From NCBI GenBank assembly GCA_963575745.1, contig CAUYUJ010002091.1, positions 420,223-484,222 of the forward strand: a stretch of DNA of 64,000 nt. Reading direction: 5' to 3'. Below, one piece after another: positions 37,500 through 43,564 of this stretch. Origin of the DNA: Prorocentrum cordatum. Its lineage: Eukaryota; Sar; Dinophyceae; Prorocentrales; Prorocentraceae. The notes under the pieces are model-generated. The model worked only from the letters and a program-made list of their open reading frames with translations, ran no database searches and was not told the DNA's origin. Position 1 is the stretch's first letter. Every line of letters starts with the position of its first letter. The position numbers and the translations under genes were made by a program.

Positions 37500-37667
37500 T
37501 GTCCGCCCCTCCTCCTCCTGCCTCCCTCCCTCCCCTCCTTCCCCTCCCTCCCCCCCCTTTCGTCCTCCTTTTCTTCCTCGTCCTCCTTTTCTTCCTCCTC
37601 CTCCTACTCCTCCTCCTCCTCCCCATCCTCCTCCTCCTCCTCCTCCTCCTCCTCCTCCTCCTCCTCC
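37500..37667. repeat. (CTC)n microsatellite, 5' flank of the LINE
   Basis: Decayed then pure CTC triplets, purest at 37627-37667, abutting the spliced leader with no intervening base. The same microsatellite resumes at 43322. Confidence 0.9.
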
Positions 37668-37689
37668 TCCGTAGCCATTTTGGCTCAAG
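37668..37689 (+). other. Genomic dinoflagellate spliced leader (DinoSL), full 22 nt
   Basis: The sequence reads T, then CCGTAGCCATTTTGGCTC, then AAG. This is the complete 22-nt leader that dinoflagellates trans-splice onto nuclear mRNAs, with a T at the variable first base. It is not an SL RNA gene: the intron donor that follows the leader in SL genes (AAG/GT with a short non-coding tail) is replaced here by LINE sequence with a start codon 4 bases later. Its presence at the exact 5' end of the LINE means the element's RNA was trans-spliced and then reverse-transcribed. Confidence 0.93.
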
Positions 37690-37841
37690 GTCATGGCGCG
37701 CGGCGGCGTCCAAATGGATACCGCTGTGCCGCGGCCAGGAGTCGAGATTCCTTTGCAGCCACCCCCAGGGCGAGCTGCCGCCAAAGACTGGTCCTCCTGG
37801 ACCCACAGGTTCGTGCCCGCGAGGGCTCTCCATCGCAATTC

Positions 37842-39251
37842 ATGGCGGCCGAGGAGGAGCGCCGCAGGGCTGGGCGCGCTGGTGGCGGCCACCGTGGTCC
37901 TGGTGCTGCTGATGGCCGCAGGCGGGCTGACAAAGGAAAGGAGCCCCCGCCTGAGGACATTCGCTCCGCCTCCCGCAGCACCAACGAGCGCGCCCCGGCG
38001 CGGAGGCGCGCACGGCGGGGCCACCCTCGCTCCGACGGCGAAGCCGACGCCTCGGGTTCCCCAGCCAGTGATCGTGCACGACATGCCCCCGATGGTCTCG
38101 ACCGTGCTGCTCAAGAGGAGCTCGTCGCCGCCCTCGAGGCCGCGCCCACCTTCCCCACGCAGGAGCGGATGGACATGCAGGTGGAGCAGACTACCACGGG
38201 CAAGCCCCCAGTGGGACCCCATCATGCTCAAGCTGATCCGTGGCAACATCCTGGTGGAGATCCATGGCATGAACGCGCTGCTCCTGCTGACGGACACGCT
38301 GCGGCCCCCGCGGCTGGCACTCCCGTCGGCGGGATGGCCACCCCTGTGGACGCGGGCGGCACGGACATGCAGGCCATGCTCCAGAGCTGCATTCGTCAAG
38401 CCACTGATGCGATCGCTGCCACCTCCATGGCGCAAGTCACGTCTTGCCAGACTCAGCTGGTGCGCATGTTCCAGACCCAGCAGGAGGCCGTCAACAGATC
38501 CCTCGCCGTGCAGACACGCGACATCGCCTCCATCGGTCAGCGAGCTGACGCGCTGGAGGCCGAGCAGGCTGCCATGCGCAAACAGATCGGTGACATCAAC
38601 AAGGTGCTGGCCCTCGCGGAGAAGGAGCTCCCCCTCATGGACTTCCAAGAGCTGGAGGCGTGGAGCCGCCAGCCCAACCCGAGGGTCTTCTCGATCGGCG
38701 CTCCGCAGCTGGTTGGTCCCGCGCAGGCGCTGCAAGGCCTCGAAGAGTGGATTCGCGCTGCTGGCCTCACCAATGACATGGTCCGCCTCGATCCCGCTGT
38801 CCCATCCAAACGCTTCAACGTCCTTGTGCAGGGTGGTGACGGCGTCGCTCTACCCCGTGCCCAAGCCCTCGCTCGGCAGCTTCGAGACCCTGCTGGCAGG
38901 AACGGGTGGCGTGCTTTCTGCGCGCAGAGCGTCGGAGGAGGCACCGTCCCGCTGTACATCTCGCCCGACAAGTCGCCCCAGCAAGTGCGAATGGAGATCC
39001 AGTCGAGGAGGCTATCGACTTTGCTCGCAGAAGCTTATCCTGGCATCTCTTTCAGTGCGCAGCGTGCACGGGGCATCGTCACCTCCCAGGGCGTCAACGT
39101 TGCCAAGCTCGAGATGGGCGAATCCCGACACATCGACACGATCATCAGGTGGAACCCAGACATGGTGGCCAGACTGCACATCGACAGGGAGTCCATCAAC
39201 GCGCAGTTCAAGAAGGCCTTCTCCGTGGTGGACAATACCGAGTGGATTTAG
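37842..39251 (+). CDS. LINE ORF1 protein (RNA-binding/chaperone type)
   Basis: From the first in-frame ATG, 469 residues. The first ~190 are Arg/Ala/Pro-rich and probably disordered. A helical, coiled-coil-like stretch follows (SCIRQATDAIAATSMAQVTS ... QRADALEAEQAAMRKQIGDI, with heptad-spaced Leu/Ile/Met). The C-terminal half contains an alpha/beta region (RFNVLVQGGDG, VRMEIQSRRLSTLLAEAYPG) like the RRM-like and C-terminal domains of LINE ORF1 proteins. Known ORF1 proteins trimerise through the coiled coil and coat the element RNA. The frame is also open upstream of this ATG to before the SL, but has no earlier ATG after the SL. The first ATG of the mRNA (37693) is in the ORF2 frame, so an N-terminal frameshift is possible (MARGGVQMDTAVPRPGVE... 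then this frame). Confidence 0.75.
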   Translation: MAAEEERRRAGRAGGGHRGPGAADGRRRADKGKEPPPEDIRSASRSTNERAPARRRARRGHPRSDGEADASGSPASDRARHAPDGLDRAAQEELVAALEAAPTFPTQERMDMQVEQTTTGKPPVGPHHAQADPWQHPGGDPWHERAAPADGHAAAPAAGTPVGGMATPVDAGGTDMQAMLQSCIRQATDAIAATSMAQVTSCQTQLVRMFQTQQEAVNRSLAVQTRDIASIGQRADALEAEQAAMRKQIGDINKVLALAEKELPLMDFQELEAWSRQPNPRVFSIGAPQLVGPAQALQGLEEWIRAAGLTNDMVRLDPAVPSKRFNVLVQGGDGVALPRAQALARQLRDPAGRNGWRAFCAQSVGGGTVPLYISPDKSPQQVRMEIQSRRLSTLLAEAYPGISFSAQRARGIVTSQGVNVAKLEMGESRHIDTIIRWNPDMVARLHIDRESINAQFKKAFSVVDNTEWI

Positions 39252-39312
39252 CACGCCGCTGTGGGCGCCCTGGCGCCCTCCTGGAGCACGACATGGCTTT
39301 CATGGCCTTCAC

Positions 39313-42300
39313 ATGGTCGTGTGGAACGCTCGTGGCCTACTCCATTCGGATGCCAGGCTGCGCAGACGCAAGCAGGCGCTGCTCGCATCGTACATGAAGG
39401 TCAATGCCATCATCGCGGTGCAAGAGGTCCACGGCTCCGAGGACGCGCTCAGGATCTTCCTCCAGGCGCAGCCGCAGAAGTACATGAGCTTCCTCTCCCC
39501 TGGCCCCACCGCCGCCGTGGGGGGTGTTGCCTTTCTCGTCCCGCGCATCATCGATGAATGTCCAAGGGCGGAAGGACCCAGAGCCGAATCTCTGGGATGC
39601 AGGGGTGCCGCGCCGCGGGAAGGCTCCCATGCGCGCGCCGCACCCCCTGCAGCATCCTTGCCGACTCATGATCCCTGGTCAAGTGCACGTACCTCCTCGT
39701 CTTCATCGGCTACAAGTCGCACCACCAATCGGTCAAGTTCACGAAGTCCTCCCCCGACGCCCACGACGAAGCCAATCGACACACGGTCTAGCTCACGGAA
39801 CGCCACTCCAGCCCTACCGTCTTACAGCTTCGTTTCTGTGGCCGCTGGCCGTGCGGCGCTCCTCACGATCACCGACAGCACGGGCAAGTACAGCATGCAG
39901 ATTTTCAACATTCACAACTACGACCTCAAGCCGCACGAGTTTTCCGCCATTCAGCGCACCTGGTCCAGTGGCCTTACCTGGGCGCGCCGCGACTCCCTGC
40001 ACCGCGTCTTTCTGGCCGTCGGGGACTTCAACATTGCCTCTCGCCCGCCAGTTAGCCAACGCGCTCCCTCTGACGCTACGGCGTGGCGCTTACGACCTGA
40101 CAATCGCTGCCAACTACGTCAACCTGCGTGGCGGCGCCTCTTGGCTGCCGCTTTGGAGATTGAATCACAATGGCCGACTCACTACGACAAGTCCTGCAAG
40201 CAGCTGTCCACGATCGACCGCATCTTCGTGGGGATTGACGCGCATGCCATGCTGTCGGTCTCTACAATCCTGACCACCGCGAGGGATGCGATGGAGCTCT
40301 CCGAGGCTGGCATCAGCGACCACGCGCCCCTCGTCTTGCAGATCACTGCTGCTCGACACGTCCCGGGAGACGAGCAGCCTATTCCGACGCACCTCTTCAA
40401 CCACAAGAAGTGCCCCGAGACCTACGCGCTCATGCTGGCGCACTGTTCCTTGGAGGGGGAAACGGCGGAAGGGCGCTGGAGAGCAGCGAAGCAGTGCATG
40501 AAGCTAGCCGCTCGACGTGCGCGGGATGAACAGCTGAGAACCAACTTCTCCCTCCTCGTCAAGGACTCCTCGGCCGAGACCTCGTACATGGGCTTCAAAT
40601 CGGCGGCGAGAGCCGTCTGGCGACAGGACGCCGTCCTGGCGGGCAGGCTTCTCGACTCCTGCCCCGCGCTGGCGACCCACCTCAAAGTCACCGACGGCAC
40701 CGTGCGCATTGTGGACACCAACAGCTTTGCCTCCAACTTCGACGCAATTGCTGAGCGGGTGCACTCTATGAGAAGACAAGCGGCGGAGGCCGCAGCTCGG
40801 ACAGCCAACGTGCGCGACAGCGCAGCCTGGCGGAGAGTTGAACGTAAGGCCGCCAGACACGCTCAGCTGTGGGTCCCCTGGCGGCGTCGCATGATCCTCT
40901 CTGGCCTGCGCGTGGACTCTACACCGTGTTCCGCCAAGGACTCGCAGGTGGCTCAGCATGTGGTCTCCGACCCCGCGGGCATGAAGACGATTGTGGCGAA
41001 CTACTGGGGTGAGATCTTCGCGAAGTTGCCGAACGATGAGCAGCTCAAGACCATGGGCTCTTTCTTGGACAAGCACGCACCGCGGTACCCGGTGGTGGAA
41101 CTTCCCCAACCTGCCCTCCACAACCTCGAACGAGCGGTCAGCAGAGCACCCCCTAGCGCTGCGGGACCTGACCAACTCACGTACGCTGCATGGCGGCGCA
41201 GCCCTGGTGCGCTGCAGCATCTCCACGGGCTCATGGAGACCATCTTCAACGACGGAGTCGCCCCACTCGACCTCAACTGGTCGATCTTCATCTGCGTCCC
41301 CAAGGGCACGGAGGAGGACGACGTCCCTGATTCATGCACTCGCACGGCATCCACCGTGCGCACTCTCTCCCTCAAGAACTGTGACGCCAAGCTGATTGCG
41401 GCATGCGCGGATCGTGGACTGCAGCCTATTGCAACATCATCTACCTCACCCGAGCAGAAGGGCTTCACTGCGGGGCGGCGCTTCGTCGACCACATCCCTT
41501 TCCTGGACGCTGAATGCCGCAGGGAAGGACTCCTTCCTGATGCTGCGGCCCGTCGCCCGATGTTCCTTTCGTTCGACTTCCGCCAGGCCTTCCCATCGCT
41601 CTTCAGGGAAGTCATCGAGAAGGTCCTCCCGCGCTACGGGGTCCCGCTGGGCTTTCGCAACGTGATCATGGCGCTCTACAGCAACTGCCTCGCTTTCAGC
41701 TCCTTCCGAGCCGAGGGCACCAGCGCGGAGCTGGAGCCACTGTTTGCGCTCATGTGCGGCATCATGCAAGGATGCCCGCTCTCTGGCACGGTATGGTGTC
41801 TGGCCATGGATGCTCCCATCCGCGCTCTGCTAGCAGCGATCGACGAGCACGGATCTCTCACAGCCTGCGCGGACGACATCGGGATGCTGATCAAGAACGC
41901 AGTCGCCCTCCCGAGCATCGACCGCACCTTCGTCTCCATCGAGTTCGCCTTCAATCTGCAGCTGGCGCTCCACAAGTGCGCGCTGGTCCCGCTGTGGGAG
42001 GAGATCACGGACAACACACTGCAAAACGTCAAGTCATTCCTTGCGGGGGCGGTCCCACGCTGGAGTGGCTTCCGCATCGACTCATCGGCCAAGTACCTCG
42101 GGACATACCTGGGCCCTGGCGTAACGGACTTTGGCATCTGGAAGGCTGCGGCGGGGAAGTGGCGGTCCCGCTGCTGGGAGCTGGCGCGCACGGGCATGGC
42201 CACCAGCCTTGCTGCCCGTGCATACAACATCAACGCGCTGCCGTGCCTCTCGTACCTGGCTCAGTTCTACTTCATCGTGCCCGCCATCTGGAAGGTCGAG

Positions 42301-43284
42301 TTCACCTCCTTGCACCGCCTGCTGCGACTGCCACCGTCTTCCATGCGCAAGGCGGACATCCTCTCGATGAGCGCGTGGTGTGGCTCGCCGGCGCCGATTG
42401 GCCTCTTCCCGTGCACGATCGCCGCGATGATGCGTTCAGCGGAGAACACGGTGAGGGGCTGGGAGGTGCACCTCCGCCACCTACATGAAGCTGCAGTGGA
42501 ACACGTACCACTGGCCGACGTGATCAAGGGCAATTGGTCACCGCCGTGGTGGCGTACGAGAAGGGCGATCGTGCAGAACTACGCCATGGTCTCGGACTCC
42601 CTCGACATGCTCGACATCCCAAGGCCGACGCTGGACTCGCTCCCGATCCCGATCCCGCGCAGGTGCATCTTGAAGGCGAAGACGGCGATGCTCATGGAGG
42701 CGAAGAACGCGGCCGCTGCCACCCCTGCCAGGAAGCCCAAGCGCCAAGCCGCGGCCGCGGCAGCGCTTCGCGGCATGCTTTACCCTGAGGACCTCGTTGC
42801 CATCATCCACCGCCGGCTCCGCAGGTGGGGGATCGACTGTCCGCTGCCCGTCCTGCGTGAGAGATGGCCTCCGCTGCGCTGCAAGCTGACGGAGGTCCGC
42901 CCAGCCTGGATGTGGTCGTGGCTGCGCACGGCGGTCAACGGCTGGACCACCTCGCGTCGCATGAGCGCCGTCATCGACGCTCGCCAGTGCATCTTCGGCT
43001 GCGACGGGGAGGACGCGCTGGAGCACTACGTGCGCTGCCCGACCCTGCGGGAGATGGCCGCGGGCGCTGGGGGTGCCGACGCCATCGGCAGTGGCCTGGA
43101 GCTCCTCGGGCTCGGCGACGAGACGTACCACACGCAGCGGTCCCACGTGGACTGCATCTTCTCCATCGGCCTCATGTGCCAGTGCTACCACATCCAGAAG
43201 TACAGGATGGACGTGGGGCTGGCCGTGGGCGTCGACCAGCGGGCCTCCGTGAGGTTGGCCGCGCTCCATCGCATGCAGGCTTAG
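39313..43284 (+). CDS. LINE ORF2: endonuclease-reverse transcriptase
   Basis: 1,323 residues from MVVWNARG. Endonuclease (about 1-345) keeps the AP-type signature residues: N5 in WNARG, E38 in QEVHG, NIHNYDL near 198, GDFN near 237 and SDHAPL near 335. Reverse transcriptase (about 600-950): motif A FLSFDFRQAFPSL with D755, motif B GIMQGCPLSGTVW near 816, motif C CADDIGML with D854/D855, then LHKCALVPL and AKYLGTYLGP. The C-terminus has a zinc knuckle CIFGCDGEDALEHYVRC from residue 1226. This enzyme nicks the target and primes reverse transcription on it. It is in the +1 frame relative to ORF1 and starts 61 bases after ORF1 stops; its frame is open all the way back to 37693. Residues about 78-170 are Ser/Pro/Arg-rich and do not fit the endonuclease fold; they look like an in-frame insertion. 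Confidence 0.93.
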   Translation: MVVWNARGLLHSDARLRRRKQALLASYMKVNAIIAVQEVHGSEDALRIFLQAQPQKYMSFLSPGPTAAVGGVAFLVPRIIDECPRAEGPRAESLGCRGAAPREGSHARAAPPAASLPTHDPWSSARTSSSSSATSRTTNRSSSRSPPPTPTTKPIDTRSSSRNATPALPSYSFVSVAAGRAALLTITDSTGKYSMQIFNIHNYDLKPHEFSAIQRTWSSGLTWARRDSLHRVFLAVGDFNIASRPPVSQRAPSDATAWRLRPDNRCQLRQPAWRRLLAAALEIESQWPTHYDKSCKQLSTIDRIFVGIDAHAMLSVSTILTTARDAMELSEAGISDHAPLVLQITAARHVPGDEQPIPTHLFNHKKCPETYALMLAHCSLEGETAEGRWRAAKQCMKLAARRARDEQLRTNFSLLVKDSSAETSYMGFKSAARAVWRQDAVLAGRLLDSCPALATHLKVTDGTVRIVDTNSFASNFDAIAERVHSMRRQAAEAAARTANVRDSAAWRRVERKAARHAQLWVPWRRRMILSGLRVDSTPCSAKDSQVAQHVVSDPAGMKTIVANYWGEIFAKLPNDEQLKTMGSFLDKHAPRYPVVELPQPALHNLERAVSRAPPSAAGPDQLTYAAWRRSPGALQHLHGLMETIFNDGVAPLDLNWSIFICVPKGTEEDDVPDSCTRTASTVRTLSLKNCDAKLIAACADRGLQPIATSSTSPEQKGFTAGRRFVDHIPFLDAECRREGLLPDAAARRPMFLSFDFRQAFPSLFREVIEKVLPRYGVPLGFRNVIMALYSNCLAFSSFRAEGTSAELEPLFALMCGIMQGCPLSGTVWCLAMDAPIRALLAAIDEHGSLTACADDIGMLIKNAVALPSIDRTFVSIEFAFNLQLALHKCALVPLWEEITDNTLQNVKSFLAGAVPRWSGFRIDSSAKYLGTYLGPGVTDFGIWKAAAGKWRSRCWELARTGMATSLAARAYNINALPCLSYLAQFYFIVPAIWKVEFTSLHRLLRLPPSSMRKADILSMSAWCGSPAPIGLFPCTIAAMMRSAENTVRGWEVHLRHLHEAAVEHVPLADVIKGNWSPPWWRTRRAIVQNYAMVSDSLDMLDIPRPTLDSLPIPIPRRCILKAKTAMLMEAKNAAAATPARKPKRQAAAAAALRGMLYPEDLVAIIHRRLRRWGIDCPLPVLRERWPPLRCKLTEVRPAWMWSWLRTAVNGWTTSRRMSAVIDARQCIFGCDGEDALEHYVRCPTLREMAAGAGGADAIGSGLELLGLGDETYHTQRSHVDCIFSIGLMCQCYHIQKYRMDVGLAVGVDQRASVRLAALHRMQA

Positions 43285-43321
43285 GCGTGGTTGAAGCCCA
43301 ACCGGCCCGCCGAGCTTCGTG

Positions 43322-43402
43322 CCCTCCTCCTCCTCCTCCTCCTCCTCCTCCTCCTCCTCCTCCTCCTCCTCCTCCTCCTCCTCCTCCTCCTCCTCCTCCC
43401 CT
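43322..43402. repeat. (CCT)n microsatellite, 3' flank or tail of the LINE
   Basis: About 80 bases of pure CCT start right after the LINE 3' UTR. It matches the array that abuts the SL, so it is either the split target or a templated tail. Confidence 0.9.
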
Positions 43403-43564
43403 CCCCCCCTGCTTCGGTCGGCGTCTGGCCCTGCCAAGAGGGGGCGCGGCCCCTCCTCCGGCAGGCTGCGCAGACGGGCCTCCTGGCCGCGCTGGGTGCT
43501 TGCTGAGCAGTGGGCCGTGCCGGCGTGTCCCTCTGCCCCCCGTCGGCAGCGTTCCGCTCTCCCG

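Follow-up and report, generated by a model that had tools for sequence, protein, structure and literature searches.

The leader and the element at the locus

The window analysed here, i.e., a whole stretch of 64 kb (64,000 nucleotides) of Prorocentrum cordatum DNA, contains an element of ~5.65 kb (37668-43322) that has CTC microsatellite sequence on both sides and begins with the dinoflagellate spliced leader (DinoSL or SL, DCCGTAGCCATTTTGGCTCAAG; Table 1). The 22-nt leader is matched base for base on the + strand, with the 21-mer CCGTAGCCATTTTGGCTCAAG exact at 37669-37689 and the T at 37668 being an allowed 'D' of DinoSL. When up to three mismatches were tolerated, this was the only DinoSL match in the 64 kb, and 100 shuffles gave none. 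Leader letters 1-3 (TCC) also continue the phase of the (CTC)n array; the unambiguous leader here therefore amounts to only 19 nt.

Table 1. Features of the element and its target in the window
Feature	Position	Strand	Basis or remark
CTC-rich microsatellite, 5' part of the target, outside the element	37508..37667	+	Tandem repeat finder; arrays and outer flanks of siblings differ
Complete DinoSL, 5' end of the LINE	37668..37689	+	Exact match; junction the same in 40/41 family-1 copies including the window
Post-SL leader region; AUG1 (37693) and AUG2 (37714) share the ORF2 frame; GGATACC at 37716	37690..37841	+	
ORF1, 469 aa	37842..39251	+	Third-position signal starts at ATG 37842
F1, the leader-proximal AUG frame, 1863 stop-free codons	37693..43284	+	Spans ORF1 out of frame, enters ORF2 in frame
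ORF2 core	39313..43284	+	Pfam, LINE-1 ORF2p matches, sibling proteins
APE-type endonuclease region of ORF2	about 39319-40323	+	Pfam score just under the cut-off
Reverse transcriptase of ORF2	about 41347-42102	+	Pfam RVT_1
3' UTR; element terminus ...GAGCTTCGTGC	43285..43322	+	Last base the same in 11/11 siblings
CTC microsatellite, 3' part of the target	43323..43404	+	

Judged by its reverse transcriptase, its copies and its ends, the element is a LINE, with an endonuclease domain that scores just below the cut-off. ORF2 gave a Pfam RVT_1 match above the cut-off (E 2.4e-10) and an Exo_endo_phos match just below it (E 8e-5, 22.9 bits versus a cut-off of 24.5), and contains WNARG, QEVHG, GDFN and SDH-like stretches, noticed by eye, which we take to be endonuclease motifs. 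Four of the five solved-structure matches to ORF2 were named LINE-1 ORF2 protein (E about 5e-10), and 19 of 21 protein relatives came from Prorocentrum cordatum, 18 of these 19 being close (50-96% identity over the aligned parts). An initial annotation of this DNA had claimed a complete 22-nt DinoSL directly after the (CTC)n array and LINE ORFs downstream; the former was found exactly at 37668-37689, its first 3 nt being ambiguous with the array, and the latter is borne out by the RVT_1, sub-cut-off Exo_endo_phos and LINE-1 ORF2p matches.

ORF1 had no significant match in Pfam, no long direct repeats (LTRs) were found apart from the simple-repeat arrays flanking the element, and the 64-kb window held no tRNA and no Rfam match at the gathering threshold. 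The fold of the LINE 3' end was no better than that of shuffles (z -0.56). Within the endonuclease region, a low-complexity stretch at about 39555-39790 is atypical with its frame preserved; part of this stretch has matches in a different frame in the sibling models P0002 and P0003.

Leader junctions in three LINE families

To collect siblings, the 4,128,499,153-base assembly was searched with a family-1 bait consisting of the 711 nt downstream of the leader, the leader itself being left out, and 40 of 81 candidate places were scored. All 40 align from base 1 or 3 of the bait and are 87-100% identical to it. Among the 30 family-1 places that were read, including the window, 29 carry the leader at the same base. 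A 35-nt family-1 motif has 35 occurrences in the genome, of which 34 fall among the 40 scored places; the remaining 10 scored places and the one new motif place all carry the leader (11/11). In total, with the window counted, 40 of the 41 family-1 5' ends have the leader at the fixed junction; 38 of these leaders are exact, and those of L056 and L140 have one substitution each. In the exception, L036 (G000:C11418:60-770), an inverted LINE 3' end lies head-to-head with a LINE 5' end and only CTCAAG of the leader is left; located at a contig edge, it is possibly an assembly artefact. The outer flanks are identical within each of the pairs L042/L047 and L141/L143, and are also shared by L010 and its identical duplicate L094; because of these shared flanks, the pairs are probably assembly duplicates, and the 81 copies of all families therefore represent fewer independent insertions. 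L042/L047 and L141/L143 were retained in all counts.

The 3' end of family 1 is equally fixed, the same last base being followed by CCT repeats in all 11 siblings with 3' sequence (L087 is cut by the contig end). By eye, all 40 SL-bearing 5' ends lie in CTC-rich sequence, as does the 3' side in 11/11; the CTC at the 5' side and the fixed 3' end before CCT repeats therefore indicate that family 1 inserts into CTC arrays.

Two further families were obtained with SL-free baits, namely, family 2 (seed L010, 701 nt, 40 scored of 189 candidates) and family 3 (seed L012, 40 scored of 327 candidates), the ORF1 of the latter seed being about 27% identical to that of the window. In family 2, the leader is present in 20/20 5' ends (17 exact), of which 13 cover most or all of the bait and 7 only its first ~100 nt. 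In family 3, it is likewise present in 20/20 (13 exact); 10 of these are full-length and all 10 lie in AT-rich repeats, and in the other 10, of which 9 lie in CTC-rich sequence, the similarity to the bait is confined to the first ~82-118 nt. CTC-rich arrays surround the copies of families 1 and 2, and the sequence outside these arrays differs between copies, the leader junction being the same within each family. Over the three families and their different targets, all but one of the 81 5' ends thus have DinoSL at a fixed junction (80/81), and from these alignments it was confirmed that the leader is part of the LINE and general to the three families. The initial annotation had proposed aligning sibling 5' ends, had allowed that siblings might start at other sequences or that the leader might belong to an unrelated upstream repeat, and had predicted a leader on every new copy. 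The alignment instead gave the same leader start in 40/41 siblings, differing flanks, AT-rich repeats around family 3 and an unchanged junction, and the predicted leader in all sampled 5' ends but one.

A post-leader module formed by the first 80-118 nt (L010 1537-1636; L012 1522-1603) is common to sequences with different continuations, and matches stopping near its end made up 28/40 in the family-3 search and 23/40 in the family-2 search. About 25 nt past the leader, a GGATACC-type motif like GGATACCGCTNGTCCGCGGCCAG was observed (window 37716-37741), and similar motifs occur in L002, L006, L008, L010, L018, L024, L028, L030, L064 and L072. Its halves (CCGC/GCGG or CCTC/GAGG) appear stem-like in some elements, and the best stem varies between elements.

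Genome-wide, the exact 21-mer occurs 14,218 times (7,201 + 7,017), and its reversed control was absent. Of these leaders, 3,860 are preceded by 14 unbroken pyrimidines (~1 expected if pyrimidines make up half of the bases) and 1,345 by 13 purines plus one free base. The 51 first-listed sites were read, with minus-strand and self matches dropped; 24 follow CTC arrays, 11 GAG arrays and 16 other sequence. LINE ORF1- or ORF2-like sequence lies on the same strand within 1.5-3 kb of 15 of the 51 (tblastn, E<=1e-3), and Pfam searches on 20 of the 36 sites without such a match revealed an endonuclease domain in L063, L071 and L078 (the last just below the cut-off), so that at least 18 of the 51 head LINE-like sequence. 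Those 20 sites contained no clear host gene, the only candidates being sub-threshold (Cluap1 in L003, ribosomal S27e in L062); that host retrogenes share the targets of LINEs therefore remains an idea.

Reading frames behind the leader

The ATG 4 nt past the leader, which the initial annotation had noted ahead of ORF1, is indeed present (37693, + strand), but it lies in the ORF2 frame, and ORF1 starts at 37842. AUG1 (37693) and AUG2 (37714) both open F1, the frame of ORF2, and ORF1 is read in F3. An ORF1 start at 38334 (from P0024) was replaced by 37842, where the third-position signal begins; between siblings, there is no codon periodicity in 37690..37841. Over 29 copies, the pN/pS of the ORF1 frame is 0.23 for 37693-38333 and 0.12 for 38334-39248, and SL-headed copies contain one ORF1 stop in 8,816 codon cells; by these measures, family-1 ORF1 is under purifying selection. 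For F1, the pN/pS over 37693-38333 is 2.2 in the same number of copies, against 0.23 for the ORF1 frame, and the idea that the AUG1 frame is a coding ORF0 or an exon captured from the host was rejected on this ground. The AUG1 frame has a membrane-anchor-like stretch and a seemingly similar gene model, P0023 (31% identity, E 1.6e-6); a protein search with this frame matched only the sibling P0022.

F1 is nevertheless stop-free from 37693 to 43281 in the window. Among 452 distinct ORF1 changes between copies, none creates an F1 stop, versus 10.7 expected from changes of the same class; the third (control) frame gained 18 versus 26.5 expected. Since the third frame is also depleted, some general stop depletion exists, and the chance of zero F1 stops corrected for it is 0.0007. 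When synonymous codons were permuted, 3.1-5.2 F1 stops were expected and none observed in each of the window, L006, L018, L008, L010, L012 and L016 (P 0.0008-0.009); L006 and L018 are close relatives, and all except the window were assessed over the 1.5 kb past the leader. L146 also has none (2.5 expected, P 0.03). Exceptions are L072 (4 versus 6.8 expected), L062 (3 versus 2.6) and L145 (1 versus 3.8), and L147 has no F1 stop in ORF1 (4.2 expected) but an early one at base 46. Summed over 12 elements, with L148 left out because of shifted frames, there are 8 F1 stops versus 49.8 expected, and 162 versus 209 in the third frame. Control-frame depletion was found in L012 (9 versus 19.7, P 0.0008), L006 (P 0.02), L018 (P 0.03) and L147 (P 0.007), and ORF2, used as a yardstick at the same shift, has 22 stops versus 27.9 expected (P 0.05). 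In 9 of 18 listed elements (L024, L028, L029, L030, L064, L067, L076, L079 and L080), which stood outside the permutation test, F1 contains stops and the ORF1 matches are weak or broken; in L016, F1 is open, yet the first 120 nt are without ATG.

It was concluded from these comparisons that several intact elements appear to preserve an F1 free of stops even though the residues it encodes drift, and that an open F1 is not universal. Such a frame would fit a leader-proximal AUG that reaches ORF2, with ORF1 translated by ribosomes that scan past this AUG, the 5' UTR ahead of it being very short (leaky scanning). A frameshift late in ORF1 would have no need of an F1 that is open across all of ORF1.

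Proposed leader renewal, its alternatives and related systems

Tandem arrangements of the leader with a relic (SL+CCATTTTGGCTCAAG) occur 1,202 times exactly in the genome, versus 14,218 exact SLs, and in 6 of the 51 sampled sites at up to two mismatches. Two of these six are LINE-like, namely, L010, a family-2 LINE, and L071, which has an endonuclease domain in the ORF downstream. A further tandem relic, L111, has a different flank and is common to family 2 only over the first ~102 nt. A single leader is found in the remaining 18 family-2 5' ends of the sample, some of them in copies 94-95% identical to L010. The relic is 15 nt long and is cut at the leader-internal AG (CCGTAG^CCATTTT); in the available text of PMC12014239, published dinoflagellate relics likewise are without the first seven bases. 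The cut at CCGTAG^CC indicates that leader-containing RNAs were trans-spliced again, and the tandem relics may accordingly be read as footprints of repeated trans-splicing. At the bases preceding CCGTAG in sampled SL sites outside CTC context, T was found in 23 of 26 (A in 2, G in 1); therefore, the full 22 nt are usually copied and reverse transcription commonly reaches leader base 1. Two expectations voiced in the initial annotation are thereby answered, i.e., 5' ends with two tandem SL relics do exist, L010 and L071 among the LINE-like ones, and reverse transcription to the very end of the leader is common at the non-CTC sites. In L053, a truncated leader (CCGTAGCCATTTT) is followed by an A and then a complete leader, possibly reflecting a template jump between two leader-bearing RNAs.

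Leader mutations were counted in 81 copies (40, 20 and 21 for families 1 to 3), with the seeds L010 and L012 included and L036 and L094 excluded; tandem copies were scored by their outer leader, and family-2 sites were rescored by hand. The leader has 13 private substitutions and none shared within a family; in the 21 nt that follow, a stretch to which 11 family-1 copies contribute only 8 nt, 6 are private and 9 shared (Fisher p=0.0008). Copies with a substituted leader include L056, L140, L103, L109 and L110. Expressed as sites with shared variants, this is 0/63 for the leader versus 9/63 for the next 21 nt (p=0.003). Without rescoring, there are 3 shared leader sites, all in family 2, versus 9 (p=0.13); these three arose because the relic was read in two tandem copies, the outer leaders of which are exact. 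The leader behaves as if it were re-supplied each cycle, its decay after insertion being visible and not inherited; the remaining alternative for the private-only leader variants is selection against passing on variant leaders.

On the strength of these sequence patterns, it is quite probable that the element belongs to an autonomous microsatellite-targeting LINE family whose replicating RNA is the SL trans-spliced mRNA. A transcript reading into the LINE from upstream would undergo host trans-splicing. As a rule, the acceptor would be the last AG of the leader copy already present, so that exactly one leader would be regenerated; at times it would be the AG inside the leader (CCGTAG^CCATTTT), and the 15-nt relic would then stay behind. 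That most copies have a single leader would follow from splicing at the terminal AG, a presumed step that would restore the leader exactly. The capped LINE RNA would then be translated, the endonuclease/reverse transcriptase would nick a CTC repeat, and the RNA would be copied back to the first leader nucleotide, giving each full-length copy a fresh leader. With the short leader, the distance from the cap to AUG1 would be ~26 nt; initiation at AUG1 would take ribosomes through F1 across ORF1 into ORF2, and those skipping AUG1 would start ORF1 at 37842. We infer splicing in every cycle, the choice of acceptor and this translation scheme from the DNA. A role of the CTC array as a required polypyrimidine tract is weakened by SL sites in purine (1,345/14,218) and AT context; GAG- and AT-context insertions have no upstream pyrimidine tract, and CTC arrays are therefore not a general acceptor signal.

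It could be argued instead that a single retroposition event brought in the leader, which was then inherited as an ordinary 5' end (e.g., as a promoter whose TTTT motif is recognised in the DNA), with transcripts beginning at the leader and no trans-splicing now. Most sampled copies indeed have one leader and no stack, family 1 shows very high conservation over the first 50 nt past the leader as well, so that, by conservation alone, selection on an inherited 5' end would fit, and DinoSL has been proposed to carry a promoter motif (Song et al. 2018, in the available text of PMC6050394). However, the tandem relics of L010 and L071 are cut exactly at the leader AG, leader variants are often private and never common to sampled family members, and the same leader heads families with differing adjacent 5' sequence, which makes single capture unlikely. 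Far less probable still is a jump in which the reverse transcriptase, on completing the first strand, left the LINE RNA for SL RNA, which is abundant. LINE enzymes are presumably capable of such jumps, and the truncated second leader beside a whole one in L053 looks jump-like, but jumping predicts SL-RNA intron letters and scattered junctions, whereas exon only, joined at one fixed base per family, was seen.

An equally slight probability attaches to the SL-headed copies being dead processed copies of LINE mRNA, with master copies that are without the leader. Formally they resemble host retrogenes with SL relics; yet among 81 5' ends only L036, at its contig edge, is without a full leader (with 40 candidates scored per search, rare ones could be missed), and family-1 ORF1, with a pN/pS of 0.12 and 1 stop in 8,816 codon cells, does not look dead. 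Chance adjacency to an SL relic, or an upstream repeat ending in SL, might be invoked since SL relics are common (14,218 in the genome), but can hardly be credited when a base-exact junction recurs in 80/81 5' ends at different targets.

Reportedly, DinoSL relics in dinoflagellate retrogenes were described by Slamovits and Keeling in 2008. Genomic SL relics in host retrogenes of dinoflagellates are documented in the available text of PMC6050394, PMC12014239 and PMC7245778. The LINEs resemble these retrogenes, as far as that text describes them, in having a genomic SL at cDNA 5' ends, CCATTTTGGCTCAAG relics and multiple relics that mark recycling rounds; they differ in that the carrier is not a host gene moved in trans but an autonomous LINE, with a leader that is constant in the sampled family copies. 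Similar to LINE-1-type APE non-LTR elements, they combine ORF1 with an endonuclease/reverse transcriptase ORF2, a LINE-1 ORF2p-related reverse transcriptase and a fixed 3' end, but their 5' end is a host-encoded spliced leader and their ORF1 is nested in a longer frame that runs into ORF2. For trypanosomatid L1Tc, an unspliced RNA from an internal promoter is described, with a 77-nt Pr77 containing a ribozyme (available text of PMC8190864). Shared with L1Tc/ingi, on that description, are an SL trans-splicing host and a short 5' module (here ~80-100 nt) on different downstream sequences; in contrast to L1Tc, the leader here is within the copied RNA, and the module is likened to Pr77 by its sharing pattern alone.

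In the accessible portions of two further reports, SL is found on about 30% of the Iso-Seq reads of transposable elements (TEs) in Hydra (PMC12220107), and C. elegans Cer1 carries SL1 on a spliced 2.4 kb mRNA (with forms with and without SL1) and not on the 8 kb RNA (PMC3315495). Transcripts of these TEs are trans-spliced by the host, as is deduced here from DNA, but those portions report no DNA-encoded leader at the element starts. Kibi, Koshi and others are LINEs that target microsatellites. Microsatellite targets are also named for LINEs in the available text of PMC4640811. The present elements insert into simple repeats as well, a likeness of target type. We know of no leader at the 5' end among microsatellite-targeting LINEs, and no report of a LINE with a DNA-encoded SL head was found in the literature covered, preprints and most subscription papers being outside its scope.

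Taken together, the LINE is headed by the leader and most likely renews it. If true, a parasite 5' end renewed by host trans-splicing would be an unusual solution to the 5'-end and cap problem of a LINE. The enzyme that makes SL-tagged retrogenes in dinoflagellates is called unknown in a review whose available text favours LTR elements (PMC6050394). CTC or GAG arrays precede 35 of the 51 sampled SL sites; leader-bearing LINEs lie in simple repeats like many other SL insertions, which makes a LINE engine for SL-retrogenes directly testable. It is conceivable, though somewhat doubtful in its full breadth, that a whole dinoflagellate LINE superfamily gives up its leader in each cycle and obtains a new one from SL RNA, with a self-restoring relic AG and a two-frame mRNA (ORF2 reached from the leader-proximal AUG, ORF1 when it is skipped), and that its enzymes, by also copying other SL-capped mRNAs into these repeats, drive the huge load of SL-retrogenes in dinoflagellate genomes.

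Lastly, relatives of the LINE were absent from a viral contig collection, and one AT-rich contig of that collection (IMGVR_UViG_3300045993_001077; L001, 1936-2913) carries two exact DinoSL copies. By eye, this contig is giant-virus-like, with a glycosyltransferase family 41 gene and others. Its second DinoSL lies just upstream of a 254-aa ORF that is GC-richer by eye, which gives the impression of an SL-capped dinoflagellate cDNA that has inserted into the genome of a virus.
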